A stretch of 64,000 nt of DNA from Paramuribaculum sp. (lineage in GTDB: Bacteria; Bacteroidota; Bacteroidia; Bacteroidales; Muribaculaceae): positions 1-64,000 of the forward strand of contig JAIDTT010000082.1 in NCBI GenBank assembly GCA_029060545.1, in the 5' to 3' direction. How positions within the stretch are numbered: the stretch's first letter is position 1; the number at the start of each line of letters is the position of its first letter. The notes under the pieces are model-generated. The model was not told the origin of the DNA. It was given only the letters and a program-made list of their open reading frames with translations, and did no database searches. The position numbers were made by a program, and so were the translations under genes. Positions 8,341 to 19,673 of the stretch are shown in pieces.

Positions 8341-9561
8341 ATGAAAATACGCCTACCTTTTTGCCTCGCAGCCGCAGCAATGCTGGCAGTATCGACAGCC
8401 CGCGCCGACAACGGCATCAAGGATGACTTCAACCCCGTACAGACCGGTGTGACTTCGCTCAACATCGCTCCCGACGCGCGCGGCGCCTCGATGGGCGATA
8501 TCGGTGCAGCTACGGATCCCGACGTGAACTCACAATTCTGGAATCCATCGAAATACGCCTTCGCCTACAGCAAGGCCGCTGCCTCGATAAGCTATACTCC
8601 CTGGTTGCGCAAACTCGTCAACGACATCTTCCTGGCCAACGTGGCGGGCTACTATAAGCTCGGCAGCAGCGACAATCAGGCGCTCAGCGCCTCTCTGCGC
8701 TACTTCTCCCTCGGCGAAGTAAGCCAGTACACTCCGGCAGGCGGACCCGACGCGGCTCAGACGCTCAACCCCTACGAAATGGCTGTGGATCTCGGCTACT
8801 CGCGCAAACTGTCGGAAAAATACTCCATGGGCGTAGTATTCCGCTACATCTATTCCGACTTGGGATTCTCCGACTCGTATGCAGGCGACCAGTCGACAGG
8901 TGCATCTGCATTCGCGGCCGACATTTCCGGCTACTACACCACATACCCCATCATCGGGCGTAATGAGTGCCAGTGGTCGCTCGGTTGGGATATCTCTAAC
9001 ATCGGTACGAAGGTGTCGTACAACCACGGCGACAATCCGGCGTTCCTTCCCACTAATCTGCGCCTCGGCACCACCTTCGCCTTCCCGCTGGCCGACTACC
9101 ACACGCTTGCACTGAGCCTCGATCTCAATAAGCTGTTGGTTCCCACACGTCCGCGACTGAAAGACTTCGAAGCCGACGACAAACCGGAGATCGATGCTGA
9201 GCGCGAATTCAACGAAGCTCTGGAGAAATGGGAGAATATGTCGCCCATCACCGGTATCTTCAAATCGTTTACCGACGCTCCCGGCGGTATGAGCGAGGAA
9301 TTCAAGGAAATCAACTGGAGCCTCGGCGCCGAATACAACTACAATCAGCAGTTCTTCTTCCGCGCCGGCTATTACTACGAGAATGCAATGAAGGGCAACC
9401 GCAACTATTTCACCGTGGGCGCCGGCTTCTCGCTCAATGTAGTGCGCATCGACGCCGCCTATATGCTCGCTACCGCACAGACTTCCCCTCTGGATCAGAC
9501 GCTCCGATTCACCCTTACCTTTGATATGGACGGTCTGCGCGACCTCCTCGGCCGCCGTTGA
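8341..9561 (+). CDS. porV: Type IX secretion system outer-membrane protein PorV
   Basis: An outer-membrane beta-barrel of 406 residues with a signal peptide ending at ARA-DN. The mature start ([20 protein letters not shown]) and the following [23 protein letters not shown] block are diagnostic of PorV/LptO. PorV acts as the shuttle that receives cargo with C-terminal sorting domains from the Sov translocon and passes it to the attachment complex. No other T9SS component is in the window, but a candidate cargo is (flavodoxin at 17615). A 107-base gap with no clear consensus promoter precedes it; ispF follows after one base. Confidence 0.92.
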
Positions 9562-10170: not shown

Positions 10171-10390
10171 GTATAGACTCATTGTCTATACTGACATTTT
10201 GAAACCAAGAGGCGTTATGTCTTCTGCTTGTACGGATAAAGCGTAGGAAACTTACATCCAAGTATATGCAAGAGAAAGTCATGACAGTCTCCATGCCATA
10301 TGGCGTGGAGTTGTTATTTCCACATCTTCATATACAGGTATTCCTACCACCTATCCGTAAAGGCGTGGCATAGCAGCCCACGCCTCTTTT
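10171..10390 (+). ncRNA. Candidate structured small RNA, 6S-like rod
   Basis: No ORF covers this stretch, yet it carries nested pairing between a promoter box and a terminator. A 5' hairpin is GTATAGAC-TCATT-GTCTATAC. Then TACGGATA (10231) pairs with TATCCGTA (10352), GTAGGAA (10243) with TTCCTAC (10341), GTATATG (10262) with CATATAC (10329), and CTCCATGCC (10289) with GGCGTGGAG (10302) around an ATAT loop. Between the last two stems lies an open bubble of about 20 and 18 bases. A long rod with one large central bubble is the hallmark of 6S RNA, and Bacteroidales are known to have a divergent 6S. The identity is inference; the pairing is directly visible. Confidence 0.55.
10361..10390 (+). 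terminator. Intrinsic terminator of the structured RNA
   Basis: AGGCGTGG (10361-10368) pairs with CCACGCCT (10378-10385) and is followed by CTTTT. Confidence 0.75.
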
Positions 10391-10433
10391 AATAACCACC
10401 TGTGTTGGGTTGTACAGGCAAAAATAACAAAAT

Positions 10434-10670
10434 ATGACGATAGTAGAATGTTTTGATACATATAAGGACTCCGAAATTAAGAAAATAGTTGGAGGCAGGA
10501 TGGTACATATAAAATATAGGGACGGTAGCTCCAAGAAGGGAATTGTTACGAATTTCATCAGAGCGGCTATTGCTGATGATGTCAATCGAACCATTATAGG
10601 TTTCATATTGAATGAAGAAGAAATAGTCGTATCTAAAGGTATTATTGATAATATTTATATCCTTAACTAA
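10434..10670 (+). CDS. Small hypothetical protein, possibly Sm/SH3-like fold
   Basis: A protein of 78 residues with no signal peptide or membrane segment. The sequence alternates short hydrophobic strands with polar turns (GGRMVHIKYRDGSSKKGIV, GFILNEEEIVVSKG), the look of a small beta-barrel such as an Sm- or SH3-like fold; that is a guess from pattern only. AT-rich codon use differs sharply from ispF upstream. The next gene starts eight bases downstream, suggesting an operon with the unknown proteins that follow. Family not recognised. Confidence 0.6.
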   Translation: MTIVECFDTYKDSEIKKIVGGRMVHIKYRDGSSKKGIVTNFIRAAIADDVNRTIIGFILNEEEIVVSKGIIDNIYILN

Positions 10671-10677
10671 GAATACC

Positions 10678-11376
10678 ATGAACGTCAAAACCGCGAAGTT
10701 AGTATTATCATTAAGTGTTTTGCTAAATATTATCCTTGGCTGCTTATTTTTCCTAAAGTCATGTTCTAATTCTCAATCTGCAAATAAGAATATAGATAGA
10801 AAGGAAGACTTAGTAACCCTACAAAATAAAGCAGCTGGATATATGCGTGATGCCATATGTGAAAATTTATATTACCCCAATACATACGATCCAGTAAAAA
10901 CCACTATTGACAGCGTCTTTTATGGTCCACTTACAGATGGAGAGTGTGTGCAGGCTGCCGAAGAATTAATTGACCTAAGATCTCAATATTCTTCAGCTCA
11001 ACATGCTTATAATGATGCTGTCGATCATATCAAATTTCATGGAATTACAGATCTTGGCACATTTCACTGGGGTAAAGATCGAGACGATGCAAAAGCAAAA
11101 ATGCAGAATCTTAAGGAAAAAATCGACCTGAGACAAACAACAATAAGAAATCGCGACACTTCAATGGACGGAGAGTTTATTGGATGGCAGATTGTACATC
11201 GTTACAGAGCTGCAAACAGTAAAGGTGAGGTTTCTTTTGGAAATGTTCTCTATATATTAGACCCCACCTTAACGAAAAGCTATTTCAGATATTCTCTTGA
11301 TAACAATGACAAGAACAATCTTGAATCAATTAGAGAAGTAATAGAATCAGAATTGGGTTATAAAAACAATCAGTAA
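10678..11376 (+). CDS. Hypothetical membrane-anchored protein of the AT-rich island
   Basis: A protein of 232 residues from the ATG at 10678; the longer track start overlaps the previous gene. The N-terminus has one hydrophobic segment (LVLSLSVLLNIILGCLFFL) followed by KSCSN, so it is a single-pass or lipid-anchored protein facing the periplasm. The middle is helical and charged, coiled-coil-like around residues 110-150 (AKAKMQNLKEKIDLRQTTIR). The C-terminal part (IGWQIVHRYRAANSKGEVSFG) looks like a compact alpha/beta domain. Family not recognised. It probably belongs to one transcription unit with its neighbours. Confidence 0.65.
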   Translation: MNVKTAKLVLSLSVLLNIILGCLFFLKSCSNSQSANKNIDRKEDLVTLQNKAAGYMRDAICENLYYPNTYDPVKTTIDSVFYGPLTDGECVQAAEELIDLRSQYSSAQHAYNDAVDHIKFHGITDLGTFHWGKDRDDAKAKMQNLKEKIDLRQTTIRNRDTSMDGEFIGWQIVHRYRAANSKGEVSFGNVLYILDPTLTKSYFRYSLDNNDKNNLESIREVIESELGYKNNQ

Positions 11377-16128: not shown

Positions 16129-16947
16129 ATGGAAAGACTTGACGTGCTCGACTGCCACAATGCCTATATCGGCAGCTACTTTACCGACGACCGCGGGTGT
16201 GCCCACTGCTGCCGCGAGCATACTCTCATATATATCTACTCAGGTGAACTTGAAATCACTGACGGGAACCGAAAATCGCGACTCAAGGCAGGCGACTGTG
16301 CATTTATGCGCCGCGACAACCGTATGTGGTTGCAGAAGCGAGTCTGTGACGGTATGCCCTATCATTCGATAGTACTGAAGTTTTCAAAAGATTTTCTGCG
16401 CGAATACTACCAGTCGCTCAGCCGGCGCGATATCCCGCGGGATGCCCGCCGCGACAAACACAGTCTGTACATCTTTCCCTCCGGAAGGAATGATGTTAGA
16501 GGGCTCTTCGAATCTATCCTGCCTTATTTCGAGGCCGGGATGAAACCTACCGAAGAGATGCTGATACAACGACTATCTGAGGGTGTAAGGATGATACTCG
16601 ACATTGACGTGAATCTGTATGCGTCGCTCTTTGATTTTGTAGATCCCTGGAAGATTGACCTGATGGAATTTATGGAGCGGAATTATATGCATAATCTGTC
16701 GATGGAGGAGATTGCCTATTTCACGGGGCGCAGTCTCGCTTCGTTTAAGCGCGACTTCAAGCGGTATTGCGATGTGACGCCACAGAAATGGATAATCCGA
16801 CGCCGGCTTCAGGCAGCACATGAGCTTATCCGCAGAGGTGGACGCAAAGTATCCGATGTGTGCCTTGATGTGGGATTCAAGAATCTGTCGCATTTTTCCA
16901 AAGTCTACAAGGAGGCTTATGGTGTCGCTCCGACTATGGTGATATGA
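16129..16947 (+). CDS. AraC family transcriptional regulator
   Basis: A protein of 272 residues. The N-terminal 100 form a cupin-like sensor (EHTLIYIYSGELEIT, then a GDCAFMRRDN strand). The C-terminal 100 hold the double helix-turn-helix: NLSMEEIAYFTGRSLASFKRDFKR, followed by SDVCLDVGFKNLSHFSKVYKEAYG. It probably senses a small molecule and activates the acetyltransferase-flavodoxin-ABM-CMD genes downstream, whose promoter shares sequence with its own. Autoregulation is inferred from that. The last residues (APTMVI) end slightly earlier than in many AraC proteins. Confidence 0.9.
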   Translation: MERLDVLDCHNAYIGSYFTDDRGCAHCCREHTLIYIYSGELEITDGNRKSRLKAGDCAFMRRDNRMWLQKRVCDGMPYHSIVLKFSKDFLREYYQSLSRRDIPRDARRDKHSLYIFPSGRNDVRGLFESILPYFEAGMKPTEEMLIQRLSEGVRMILDIDVNLYASLFDFVDPWKIDLMEFMERNYMHNLSMEEIAYFTGRSLASFKRDFKRYCDVTPQKWIIRRRLQAAHELIRRGGRKVSDVCLDVGFKNLSHFSKVYKEAYGVAPTMVI

Positions 16948-17044: not shown

Positions 17045-17608
17045 ATGGATATTTTTGAAAAAGACCTCAGTGGTGCGATGGTTTCGCCTGACGAGCCGGG
17101 CTATGAAGCCCTGATAGCTGAGATATTTGAGACAATAAAGACTGCCACGGAGCTGAATACCGGCTACCGATCGCCTGATGAGGTACACGAATTCATGGAG
17201 AAAATCCTCGGGAAGCCTATGCCGGAAAGTACTACAGTGCTGCCGCCACTATACATCGACTACGGCAAGCCCGTGACGATAGGCGAAGGCTGCTTCATCC
17301 AGCAGTGCTGCACTTTCTTCGGACGCGGCGGCATCACGATAGGCAATGGCGTGTTTATCGGGCCTAAGTGCAATCTGATCACAATCAACCACGACCCTGA
17401 CCCCGACAACCGGAGCGCTACCTACGGACGCCCTATCGTGATAGAGGACAATGTGTGGATCGGCATCAATTCCACAATACTACCGGGTGTAAGAATTGGC
17501 TACGGAGCGATAGTAGGAGCGCAAAGTGTGGTAACTCACGATGTTGCGCCGATGACAGTGGTAGCAGGCAATCCGGCCCGAATAATCAAGAAAATCGAGG
17601 TAAAATAA
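17045..17608 (+). CDS. Sugar O-acetyltransferase (maltose/galactoside acetyltransferase-like, left-handed beta-helix)
   Basis: A protein of 187 residues from the ATG at 17045; the earlier track start overlaps the promoter. The N-terminal helical part is followed by hexapeptide repeats (IDYGKPVTIGEGCFIQQCCTF, then GNGVFIGPKCNLITINHD) and the catalytic-histidine segment NHDPDP. The end is typical of the family: GVRIGYGAIVGAQSVVTHDV followed by VVAGNPARIIKKI. It transfers acetyl from acetyl-CoA to a sugar or similar hydroxyl; a detoxifying role is often proposed. First gene of the operon behind the shared AraC-type promoter, seven bases before the flavodoxin gene. Confidence 0.88.
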   Translation: MDIFEKDLSGAMVSPDEPGYEALIAEIFETIKTATELNTGYRSPDEVHEFMEKILGKPMPESTTVLPPLYIDYGKPVTIGEGCFIQQCCTFFGRGGITIGNGVFIGPKCNLITINHDPDPDNRSATYGRPIVIEDNVWIGINSTILPGVRIGYGAIVGAQSVVTHDVAPMTVVAGNPARIIKKIEVK

Positions 17609-17614
17609 ACAGAT

Positions 17615-18337
17615 ATGAGAAGAATAATAACGGCATTGGCCGTGATCTTGGCATCGGCTATCGCCCTACAGGCGAAAACGCTCGTGGTGTATTACAGCTA
17701 TACGAATAATGTACAGAGCATTGTTGAGGCGCTTACCCAACAAATCAACGCCGATGTGGTGCGTATCGAACCGGCTGAGAAGGGGCTTGACTATGCCGCC
17801 AATAATTATGCGATAGGCAGTGCGCAGATAGCTGCGATACGTAATAATCCGACCGATGCAGCCTCCTACCCGGCGATAGATGCTGTGAATGTGAATCTTG
17901 CCGAGTATGATTGCATAATAATAGGAGCTCCACTCTGGTGGAGCCAGATGGCCGCACCACTGCAGACCTATCTTTTTGAAAATGGTGCCGCAATGGCGGG
18001 TAAACACATTGGACTGATAGTATCGAGCGCAAGCAGTGGCATAAGCGGAGTGGAGGAAGATGCCAAGCGTCTTATCCCTGACGGAGATTTCTTCACGACA
18101 TCGCTATGGGTACGTAGCGCGCAGGTATCCAGCGCACCAAGCCTGATCGAGCAATGGCTCACAGATATAGACTATAAGGCTGTGGCTGATCTTGGCACCG
18201 TGGCGAATGATCAGGATACGGATCATTACACTGTGTATTCCATATCGGGTAATCTGGTCGGCAGCCGTATGGCATCTCTTGAGAATCTCGCCACAGGCTT
18301 GTATATCATCAATGGTAGAAAGGTACGTATGAACTGA
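17615..18337 (+). CDS. Exported flavodoxin with a type IX sorting-like C-terminus
   Basis: A protein of 240 residues. A signal peptide (about residues 1-20, ending ALQA) precedes a flavodoxin domain that opens KTLVVYYSYTNNVQSIVEAL and carries IIIGAPLWWSQMAAPLQTYL. After residue 195 a linker leads to YSISGNLVGSRMASLENL and GLYIINGRKVRMN, which closely follows the T9SS type A sorting consensus (Y-x-x-x-G, GxYxxxGxK, basic end). The protein is thus predicted to cross the outer membrane through the PorV-linked system and be anchored at the surface. An FMN protein outside the cytoplasm is unusual, since FMN would have to be acquired there. Confidence 0.8.
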   Translation: MRRIITALAVILASAIALQAKTLVVYYSYTNNVQSIVEALTQQINADVVRIEPAEKGLDYAANNYAIGSAQIAAIRNNPTDAASYPAIDAVNVNLAEYDCIIIGAPLWWSQMAAPLQTYLFENGAAMAGKHIGLIVSSASSGISGVEEDAKRLIPDGDFFTTSLWVRSAQVSSAPSLIEQWLTDIDYKAVADLGTVANDQDTDHYTVYSISGNLVGSRMASLENLATGLYIINGRKVRMN

Positions 18338-18342
18338 ATCCT

Positions 18343-18852
18343 ATGACGAAGGTACTATTGCTTATATCCGCCTTGCTGAATATTGCAACCATGACCGCAC
18401 GTACAGACATTCCGGCGATCGATGTGCACTCACACGTGGTCACTGATGAGTATATACTATGTGCATACGGCTGCAATCAGCCGGAAACCGACAACAATAT
18501 GTGTGACAAATCAGCAATGCAACCCGACGGCATAGTGCGCCTGTCGAAAATCCGGGTACACCCAGAATATCTCGAGGAGTATATGAGGTATGCTATGGAG
18601 GTAGGTACCACATCACTGGAGACAGAACCCGGCGTACTGACTATGTATGCGGTAGCCGACAAAGATAATCCCTGCAACATCACCATACTGGAGACATACG
18701 CAAGCGCGGAAGCATATAGAAGCCATATCGCATCCGAGCACTTTCAGAAATACAAACAGGGCACTATCCACATGGTCGACTCGCTCGTGCTCGACGACGT
18801 GACGCCTCTCAATCCCGACAATCGAATAATCAATTTTATTGACAGAAAATGA
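18343..18852 (+). CDS. Chimeric protein: amidohydrolase N-terminus fused to an ABM (quinol monooxygenase-like) domain
   Basis: A protein of 169 residues. After a signal peptide the sequence IPAIDVHSHVVTDEYI is the metal-binding start of a secreted amidohydrolase. It breaks off at about residue 43, where CNQPETDNN begins, a stretch that looks like the lipobox cysteine and linker of a Bacteroidales ABM lipoprotein. Residues 65-160 are a full ABM domain (VRLSKIRVHPEYLEEYMRYA, then EPGVLTMYAVADKDNPCN and EHFQKYKQGTI). The ABM part may still act as a small monooxygenase dimer in the periplasm. It looks like the product of an in-frame deletion or rearrangement. The stop overlaps the next start by four bases. 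Confidence 0.75.
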   Translation: MTKVLLLISALLNIATMTARTDIPAIDVHSHVVTDEYILCAYGCNQPETDNNMCDKSAMQPDGIVRLSKIRVHPEYLEEYMRYAMEVGTTSLETEPGVLTMYAVADKDNPCNITILETYASAEAYRSHIASEHFQKYKQGTIHMVDSLVLDDVTPLNPDNRIINFIDRK

Positions 18853-19673
18853 ATCGAATAATCATTTACATCACACTGAGTTTAATCACAATATTACCGA
18901 CTATGGCACAACAGAAGATAGTACAGACGGCCGGGCGCCAGCAGCTCGGCGATTTCGCGCCGGAATTCGCGCGCCTCAACGACGATGTGCTCTTCGGCGA
19001 AGTGTGGAGCCGCAACGATCTGCTGTCGCTGCGCGACCGCAGCCTCGTCACCATCACCTCGCTCATCTCGCAGGGCATCACCGACACATCACTCACCTAC
19101 CATCTCCAGGAGGCTAAGAAAAACGGCATCACGCGGACCGAAATAGCAGAGATTCTCACCCACATAGCCTTCTACGCCGGCTGGCCCAAGGCCTGGGGGG
19201 CATTCCGACTTGCCAAAGATGTATGGGCCGGCGACATCAAGGGCGACGATGCGCGCGCCACTTTTGCCCGCACGATGATATTCCCCATCGGTGAGCCCAA
19301 TACGGCTTACGCCAAATACTTCACCGGCCGTAGCTGGCTGGCACAGATATCGACCGACCAAATACCCTTCGCCAACGTGACCTTCGAGCCGGGATGCCGC
19401 AACAACTGGCATATCCATAAGGCAACGACCGGCGGCGGTCAGATGCTCGTAGGCGTGGCAGGCCGCGGATGGTATCAGGAAGAGGGCAAACCGGCCGTGG
19501 AGATACTGCCCGGCACTGTGATCAACATTCCGGCCAACGTAAAGCACTGGCACGGAGCAGCCAAAGACTCATGGTTTGCTCATCTGGCGTTTGCCGTCCC
19601 CGGCGAGGAGACGGACAACGTATGGCTTGAACCAGTAAGCGACGAGCAGTACGACGCCATCGAAAACCGCTAA
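18849..19673 (+). CDS. Secreted carboxymuconolactone decarboxylase-like protein with cupin domain
   Basis: A protein of 274 residues with a signal peptide ending TMAQQ. Residues 30-130 form a CMD/AhpD-like helical domain (LRDRSLVTITSLISQGI, then EIAEILTHIAFYAGWPKAW) without the CxxC pair of AhpD, so no peroxidase chemistry is expected. Residues 150-260 form a cupin with metal ligands in NNWHIHKATTGGGQMLVGVAG, PGTVINIPANVKHWHGA and later WFAHLAF. Such fusions usually sit beside flavodoxins and reductases in Bacteroidales redox clusters; the substrate is unknown. Last gene of the operon. The 238-base gap after it leads to the polysaccharide locus. Confidence 0.85.
   Translation: MNRIIIYITLSLITILPTMAQQKIVQTAGRQQLGDFAPEFARLNDDVLFGEVWSRNDLLSLRDRSLVTITSLISQGITDTSLTYHLQEAKKNGITRTEIAEILTHIAFYAGWPKAWGAFRLAKDVWAGDIKGDDARATFARTMIFPIGEPNTAYAKYFTGRSWLAQISTDQIPFANVTFEPGCRNNWHIHKATTGGGQMLVGVAGRGWYQEEGKPAVEILPGTVINIPANVKHWHGAAKDSWFAHLAFAVPGEETDNVWLEPVSDEQYDAIENR

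Follow-up and report, generated by a model that had tools for sequence, protein, structure and literature searches.

Flavodoxins are flavin-carrying redox proteins that act as cytoplasmic electron carriers. When the literature was searched for flavodoxins that are secreted or reside in the periplasm or at the surface, no case emerged, only an incidental archaeal paper, and a search for flavodoxins as cargo of the type IX secretion system (T9SS) found no description. Among T9SS cargo, the closest described counterparts of the protein presented here are those carrying the short C-terminal signals (CTDs) of Prevotella intermedia, the sole species reported to possess both short and long CTDs (PMC11969387). 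These short CTDs are 43-55 aa long, contain motifs B, D and E, leave 1-6 aa between the motif B and motif D boundaries, and have been demonstrated to be cleaved and C-terminally glycosylated. Their cleavage motif, in which a small residue occupies +1 and Ile occupies +2, lies 6-11 aa before motif B, and they have been modelled on PorV in the same way as long CTDs (PMC11969387). Regarding recognition, cryo-EM has revealed that PorV and SprA bind the type A CTD, in which a lysine near the C-terminus is nearly invariant (PMC10994853). For HBP35, the C-terminal 22 residues of the CTD, containing motifs D and E, are enough to secrete GFP, as reviewed in PMC10202324.

The window, that is, the whole stretch of DNA analysed here (64,000 nucleotides), belongs to a Muribaculaceae-type genome of 2.1 Mb that is 98.6% complete. 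It encodes a flavodoxin in which the following parts can be distinguished:

17615..18337, + strand: gene for a flavodoxin of 240 aa, predicted to be exported (open reading frame boundaries exact; PF12682)
17615..17674, + strand: Sec signal peptide, residues 1-20, MRRIITALAVILASAIALQA, with putative cleavage before K21 (sequence inspection and orthologues)
17675..18172, + strand: Flavodoxin_4 domain, residues 21-186 (PF12682 match, model and Foldseek)
18173..18226, + strand: linker, residues 187-204, of low model confidence and fast-evolving, with PorU cleavage expected at about 191/192
18188..18334, + strand: putative short T9SS C-terminal signal, residues 192-240, 49 aa (alignments A1 and A2, hhalign, own-genome relatives and model)
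18236..18250, + strand: motif B, Y208-S-I-S-G212 (tail alignments; definition in PMC11969387)
18296..18310, + strand: motif D, G228-L-Y-I-I232, with the GxY pattern (tail alignments; PMC11969387)
18317..18322, + strand: basic residues R235-K236 of motif E (alignment A4; PMC11969387, PMC10994853)

At the N-terminal side, the two assignments of a preliminary description of this DNA, a signal peptide and a flavodoxin domain, are borne out. The N-terminus, MRRIITALAVILASAIALQA followed by KTLVVYYSYTNN..., has by inspection the form of a Sec-type signal peptide with the predicted mature end at the first beta strand, and sequence comparison indicates that such a peptide is common to almost all flavodoxin orthologues. 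The match to Flavodoxin_4 (PF12682) covers residues 21-166 and passes the Pfam gathering cut-off (52.7 bits against 24). When the AlphaFold2 (AF2) model (mean pLDDT 83.7) was compared with solved structures, the best Foldseek matches were 4ICI, 4J8P, 3EDO and 3KLB (E 2e-10 to 5e-9), Flavodoxin_4 proteins from Bacteroides/Lactobacillus that share domain and fold with the window protein; in the 3KLB and 3EDO structures FMN is held. However, these four proteins are only 20-27% identical to the window protein, are compact and single-domain, lack a T9SS tail, and display the canonical S-x-[ST]-G-x-T phosphate loop. In the window flavodoxin this loop reads S-Y-T-N-N-V instead of S-x-T-G-x-T, the Ser and the Thr being kept and the Gly and the last Thr being replaced. 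The domain presents the loops YYSYTNN, PLWWSQMAAP and SSASSGIS, the latter two conserved among orthologues. With such a non-canonical phosphate loop, binding of FMN by the window flavodoxin is likely but not assured. A loose search, which also picks up paralogues, places orthologues in 23 of the 30 genera of the family; about 35 of them are close. From GTDB contigs, 80 flavodoxin loci were kept, and the closest named relatives are MAGs from the gut that bear the labels Duncaniella, Muribaculaceae or Porphyromonadaceae. An iron-regulated flavodoxin known from Bacteroidota, FldA (PMC10434189), was also considered and was not tied to the window flavodoxin.

The C-terminal tail had been described as following the type A sorting-domain pattern, a view that stands as regards kinship but not as regards class. 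TIGR04183, the model proposed for checking it and whose curated cut-off is 23 bits, gives no match to the window flavodoxin at E<=10, either by hmmscan or in a whole-genome scan; 9 other proteins of the same genome carry long CTDs above that cut-off. The tail (residues 192 to 240, DLGTVANDQDTDHYTVYSISGNLVGSRMASLENLATGLYIINGRKVRMN) is not the seven-stranded beta sandwich of ~70-80 aa; it spans 49 aa and is modelled by AF2 as a separate small beta module of four short strands (205-209, 214-219, 228-232 and 235-239). Over the 22 homologues of alignment A1, its motif residues are invariant or nearly so. The G of motif B is invariant and its Y strongly conserved in both tail alignments, A1 and A2, the G of motif D is likewise invariant and its Y conserved in at least 90% of the sequences, and K236 of motif E is invariant in the 18 close orthologues of alignment A4. 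The likeness to long type A CTDs becomes visible only by profile-profile comparison and through orthologues with full-length tails. Using hhalign, the short-tail profile was matched to long type A CTD profiles with 97% and 96% probability, and the long-tail profile, which consists of 12 rows, 8 of them flavodoxin orthologues, matches CTDs of known structure, namely those of gingipain RgpB and HBP35 and the translocon-bound CTD 8GLK. Judged by these profiles, short and long tails are homologous. From its sequence, the window tail, which has motifs B, D and E at the extreme C-terminus, is better classed among the short CTDs than among the TIGR04183 domains.

The resemblance to the short CTDs of P. 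intermedia is manifested in the length of the tail, in its motifs B (Y..G), D (GxY plus I) and E (basic), in the linker at the expected cleavage site, in the small modelled sheet, in the N-terminal signal peptide and in the coexistence with long CTDs in the same genome. Unlike in P. intermedia, motifs B and D are further apart (15 residues from G212 to G228), the distance from the cleavage site to motif B is also longer, the predicted cleavage falls at D-L, with Leu at +2 (most orthologues have G-I or G-V), and four short strands are modelled rather than three. The host differs as well, being a member of the Muribaculaceae, as does the cargo, since flavodoxins are not mentioned in PMC11969387. 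With the type A domain of TIGR04183 / PF18962 the tail shares motifs B, D and E and its C-terminal placement, and some orthologues bear full TIGR04183 tails, but the first strands and the motif A region are missing and no 7-strand sandwich is expected. HBP35 of Porphyromonas gingivalis (5Y1A), a haem-binding T9SS cargo, has a type A CTD that is full-length, unlike the window tail, and neither its function nor its cargo domain is related to flavodoxin. The cargo domain of HBP35 is thioredoxin-like.

The strongest case for the tail as a type IX signal comes from the variety of anchors among the orthologues. Most rows (68 of 91) have short tails according to a length criterion under which a few truncated ones are included, and full-length tails are found in ten orthologues, 8 of which exceed the curated TIGR04183 cut-off. 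In three proteins (L034, L120 and L038) a Cyclophil_like2 domain (PF18050) is inserted between the flavodoxin domain and the short tail. Dockerin-like repeats, GDxNGDxxVxxxDV, take the place of the T9SS tail at either protein end in L039, L045 and L046, of which L039 and L046 are counted among those with dockerin-like ends, and in some orthologues (L037, L112, L135) the tail is missing, gives way to a dockerin-like end or is truncated. Finally, L139, L142 and L144, the lipoprotein flavodoxins of Barnesiella An55, an Alistipes MAG and a Prevotellaceae MAG, combine a long Pro/Asp/Glu-rich linker with the absence of any tail, and their lipoprotein signal suggests an alternative outer-membrane anchor. 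A tree built from the flavodoxin domain only, whose bootstrap is not fully settled, requires at least 13 changes of anchor type. Since one enzyme domain can carry either the C-terminal module or a lipid anchor in its place, the module behaves as a localisation signal. The expectation that homologues keep the tail thus holds for most of them, in short or full-length form, and fails for those with dockerin-like ends and for the tail-less lipoproteins; such unrelated ends, which the preliminary description had named as refuting its reading, thus do occur. They represent other ways of anchoring one and the same domain and do not overturn the type IX reading of the window gene. In 13 disjoint close pairs, the domain has a dN/dS of 0.09, the linker (residues 187-203) one of 0.41 and the tail one of 0.17, and the tail is therefore maintained by purifying selection. 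Both dN/dS and the AF2 model (pLDDT ~54 for residues 191-200) agree in depicting a loose, low-confidence linker where the PorU cut is expected.

The flavodoxin is not the only protein of its genome to end in this manner. The short tail is present in 15 further proteins, and in all of them the match ends 0-4 residues from the C-terminus. These proteins range from 187 to 1190 aa, their N-terminal parts are unrelated and a signal peptide is evident in most; 9 of them form part of the wider profile, A2, and the others lie outside it, while profile A1 consists of the tails of the 22 homologues. A stand-alone exported cyclophilin-like protein (PF18050; L171, 3197-3760; contig C46 of the same genome) bears the same short tail. 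An acetyltransferase gene and the gene for a second flavodoxin, which is of the lipoprotein type (10219-10800), are situated ~6.5 kb away from it. Because the two domains are fused in relatives, flavodoxin and cyclophilin-like protein appear to be functionally linked.

At the level of the secretion machinery, one component is encoded within the window:

8341..9561, + strand: PorV, T9SS outer-membrane shuttle protein (NF033710, 497.8 bits, cut-off 250)

The PorU sortase (876 bits) and SprA/Sov (2700 bits) are encoded in the genome as well, both over cut-off. The PorV gene noted 8 kb upstream of the flavodoxin is thus genuine, but its nearness is incidental: in 8 other genomes, where stretches of mostly up to ~20 kb per side were read, no PorV was seen near the orthologue, and the linkage was rejected as evidence of export. 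Co-distribution was followed in 148 Bacteroidales genomes, of which 140 encode SprA and 8 do not. Short-tail matches at E<=0.001 were obtained in 70 of the 140 SprA-positive genomes, some of which may reflect long CTDs caught by the short-tail profile, against none of the 8 SprA-negative ones (hypergeometric estimate ~0.005, our own calculation). At E<=0.01, the tail profile found nothing in 10 SprA-negative genomes (the same 8 plus two more) against 1-41 matches in each of 9 SprA-positive ones, a non-random sample since these nine were chosen for carrying this flavodoxin or a close relative. One genome speaks against a strict coupling: Phocaeicola barnesiae DSM 18169 (L136) lacks SprA, yet it encodes a flavodoxin with a full-length TIGR04183 tail, one of only two TIGR04183 matches in that genome. 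This tail is best read as a recent acquisition, and the tail alone is therefore no proof of type IX use.

Flavodoxin domain, tail, machinery in the genome, co-distribution with SprA and selection on the tail are all observed, and taken together they make it quite likely that the window flavodoxin is exported via the type IX system with the short CTD as its signal. The export already proposed in the preliminary description is thereby upheld by the machinery, the 15 tails of the same genome, the SprA co-distribution, the TIGR04183-tailed orthologues and the selection, and is amended in the class of the tail and in the weight given to the nearness of PorV. For the steps of translocation, cleavage, anchoring and FMN loading we infer the following scheme. 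The flavodoxin would cross the inner membrane by Sec, and in the periplasm the SprA/Sov-PorV translocon would recognise the 49-residue shortened type A CTD. The protein would then be taken across the outer membrane, where PorU would cleave the flexible linker at about 191/192 and the cleaved flavodoxin would be joined to LPS at the cell surface.

Indications about function come from the genes that surround the flavodoxin. In the window, these are:

16129..16947, + strand: AraC-family regulator, likely the cluster regulator (PF12833, ExsA_N)
17045..17608, + strand: hexapeptide-repeat acetyltransferase without signal peptide (PF00132)
18343..18852, + strand: ABM-domain protein, predicted to be exported, fused to 38 N-terminal amidohydrolase codons (PF03992)
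18849..19673, + strand: carboxymuconolactone decarboxylase-cupin (CMD-cupin), predicted to be exported, without T9SS tail (PF02627; signal peptide in orthologues)

The acetyltransferase open reading frame is listed from TTG 17009, and its start is probably 12 codons downstream, at ATG 17045, the equivalent position in orthologues. In a 98% identical locus (L065, CAMWUX010000057.1) an Amidohydro_2 protein of 340 aa and an ABM lipoprotein of 145 aa are separate and intact; relative to it, a 951-bp in-frame deletion at ~18457 joins the start of the exported amidohydrolase to the ABM lipoprotein in the window, which is either a real deletion or an assembly error. Within 5 kb of the flavodoxin at the 80 loci, many of them on contigs shorter than that, the CMD-cupin is encountered at 39, the acetyltransferase at 32, an ABM or joined amidohydrolase at 31, the AraC regulator at 27 and a Tat-signal aldo/keto reductase at 16. 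Nearly all enzymes of this conserved set carry export signals, which suggests that a small compound, aromatic or quinone-like, undergoes redox chemistry outside the cytoplasm. T9SS tails were looked for by eye in the CMD-cupin, the ABM protein, an FMN reductase (13971) and an MscS (14633), and none was seen; the signals of the partners support extracytoplasmic chemistry, without showing that the partners share the surface location. No literature on the function of a flavodoxin/CMD/aldo-keto neighbourhood was found. Only tentatively, then, the flavodoxin could serve as an FMN redox carrier or as a reductase, acting under AraC control together with co-encoded enzymes that are likewise exported (CMD-cupin, Amidohydro_2, ABM lipoprotein, Tat aldo/keto reductase and cyclophilin-like protein) in the modification or detoxification of a small compound before its uptake, the substrate being possibly aromatic or quinone-like. 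Joint action is not obvious, since the CMD-cupin and the ABM protein, devoid of a CTD, would remain periplasmic or attached to the outer membrane.

The whereabouts of these partners are also what lends some appeal to a periplasmic flavodoxin, exported by Sec and working with the CMD-cupin and the ABM lipoprotein, in which the tail would be vestigial or structural and without a remaining part in secretion. The operon partners have signal peptides or lipoboxes and none is tailed, some orthologues (L037, L112, L135) lack the tail or end in a dockerin-like or truncated form, and P. barnesiae has retained it without SprA. Nonetheless, such a location is improbable for a protein whose tail is under purifying selection, with motif residues hardly varying across 22 homologues, when 15 unrelated proteins encoded in that genome share the tail and short tails are absent from SprA-negative genomes. 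Type IX export of the window flavodoxin does not by itself define what the protein would do at the surface, and the preliminary description had suggested extracellular electron transfer to external acceptors or the scavenging of flavins. Although the predicted surface location, the flavodoxin fold and the conserved loops of the FMN site would suit a surface FMN protein of this kind, neither a cytochrome gene nor one for flavinylation (ApbE) or an electron conduit was seen in the conserved neighbourhood, and the literature search returned no exported flavodoxin in such a role. This role is possible and gains no specific support, the neighbours pointing to exported small-compound enzymes, and we consider it slightly less probable still than the periplasmic location. 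A generic C-terminal repeat of Bacteroidales that is foreign to the type IX system, such as a stabilising or polysaccharide-binding cap, would account for the partial CTD pattern and the failure of TIGR04183, but this view of the tail is very hard to reconcile with the 96-97% probability of homology to long CTDs, with orthologues that bear TIGR04183 tails at the same place, with the SprA co-distribution and with the experimentally cleaved and glycosylated short CTDs of P. intermedia (PMC11969387).

If type IX export of the window flavodoxin is true, FMN redox chemistry would take place outside the cell in abundant gut bacteria, and a family of flavodoxins would have been selected for the surface, raising the question of how an extracellular flavodoxin is loaded with FMN outside the cytoplasm. 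A more daring and rather doubtful extension is that T9SS-positive gut Bacteroidales show a surface redox module, made up of the flavodoxin, often fused to or beside the same-tailed cyclophilin-like protein, that reduces external compounds or acceptors in a flavin-dependent manner. Beyond this protein, the short T9SS signals, published to date only from P. intermedia, are common across Bacteroidales, with up to 41 profile matches per genome. As TIGR04183, the model used by annotators, misses short tails, too few proteins are probably being counted in the T9SS secretomes of Muribaculaceae and Prevotellaceae. Short tails are abundant in several of the genomes compared (27 profile matches in G353, 41 in G349 and 34 in G346), and in G353 they far exceed the TIGR04183 matches, 27 versus 3.
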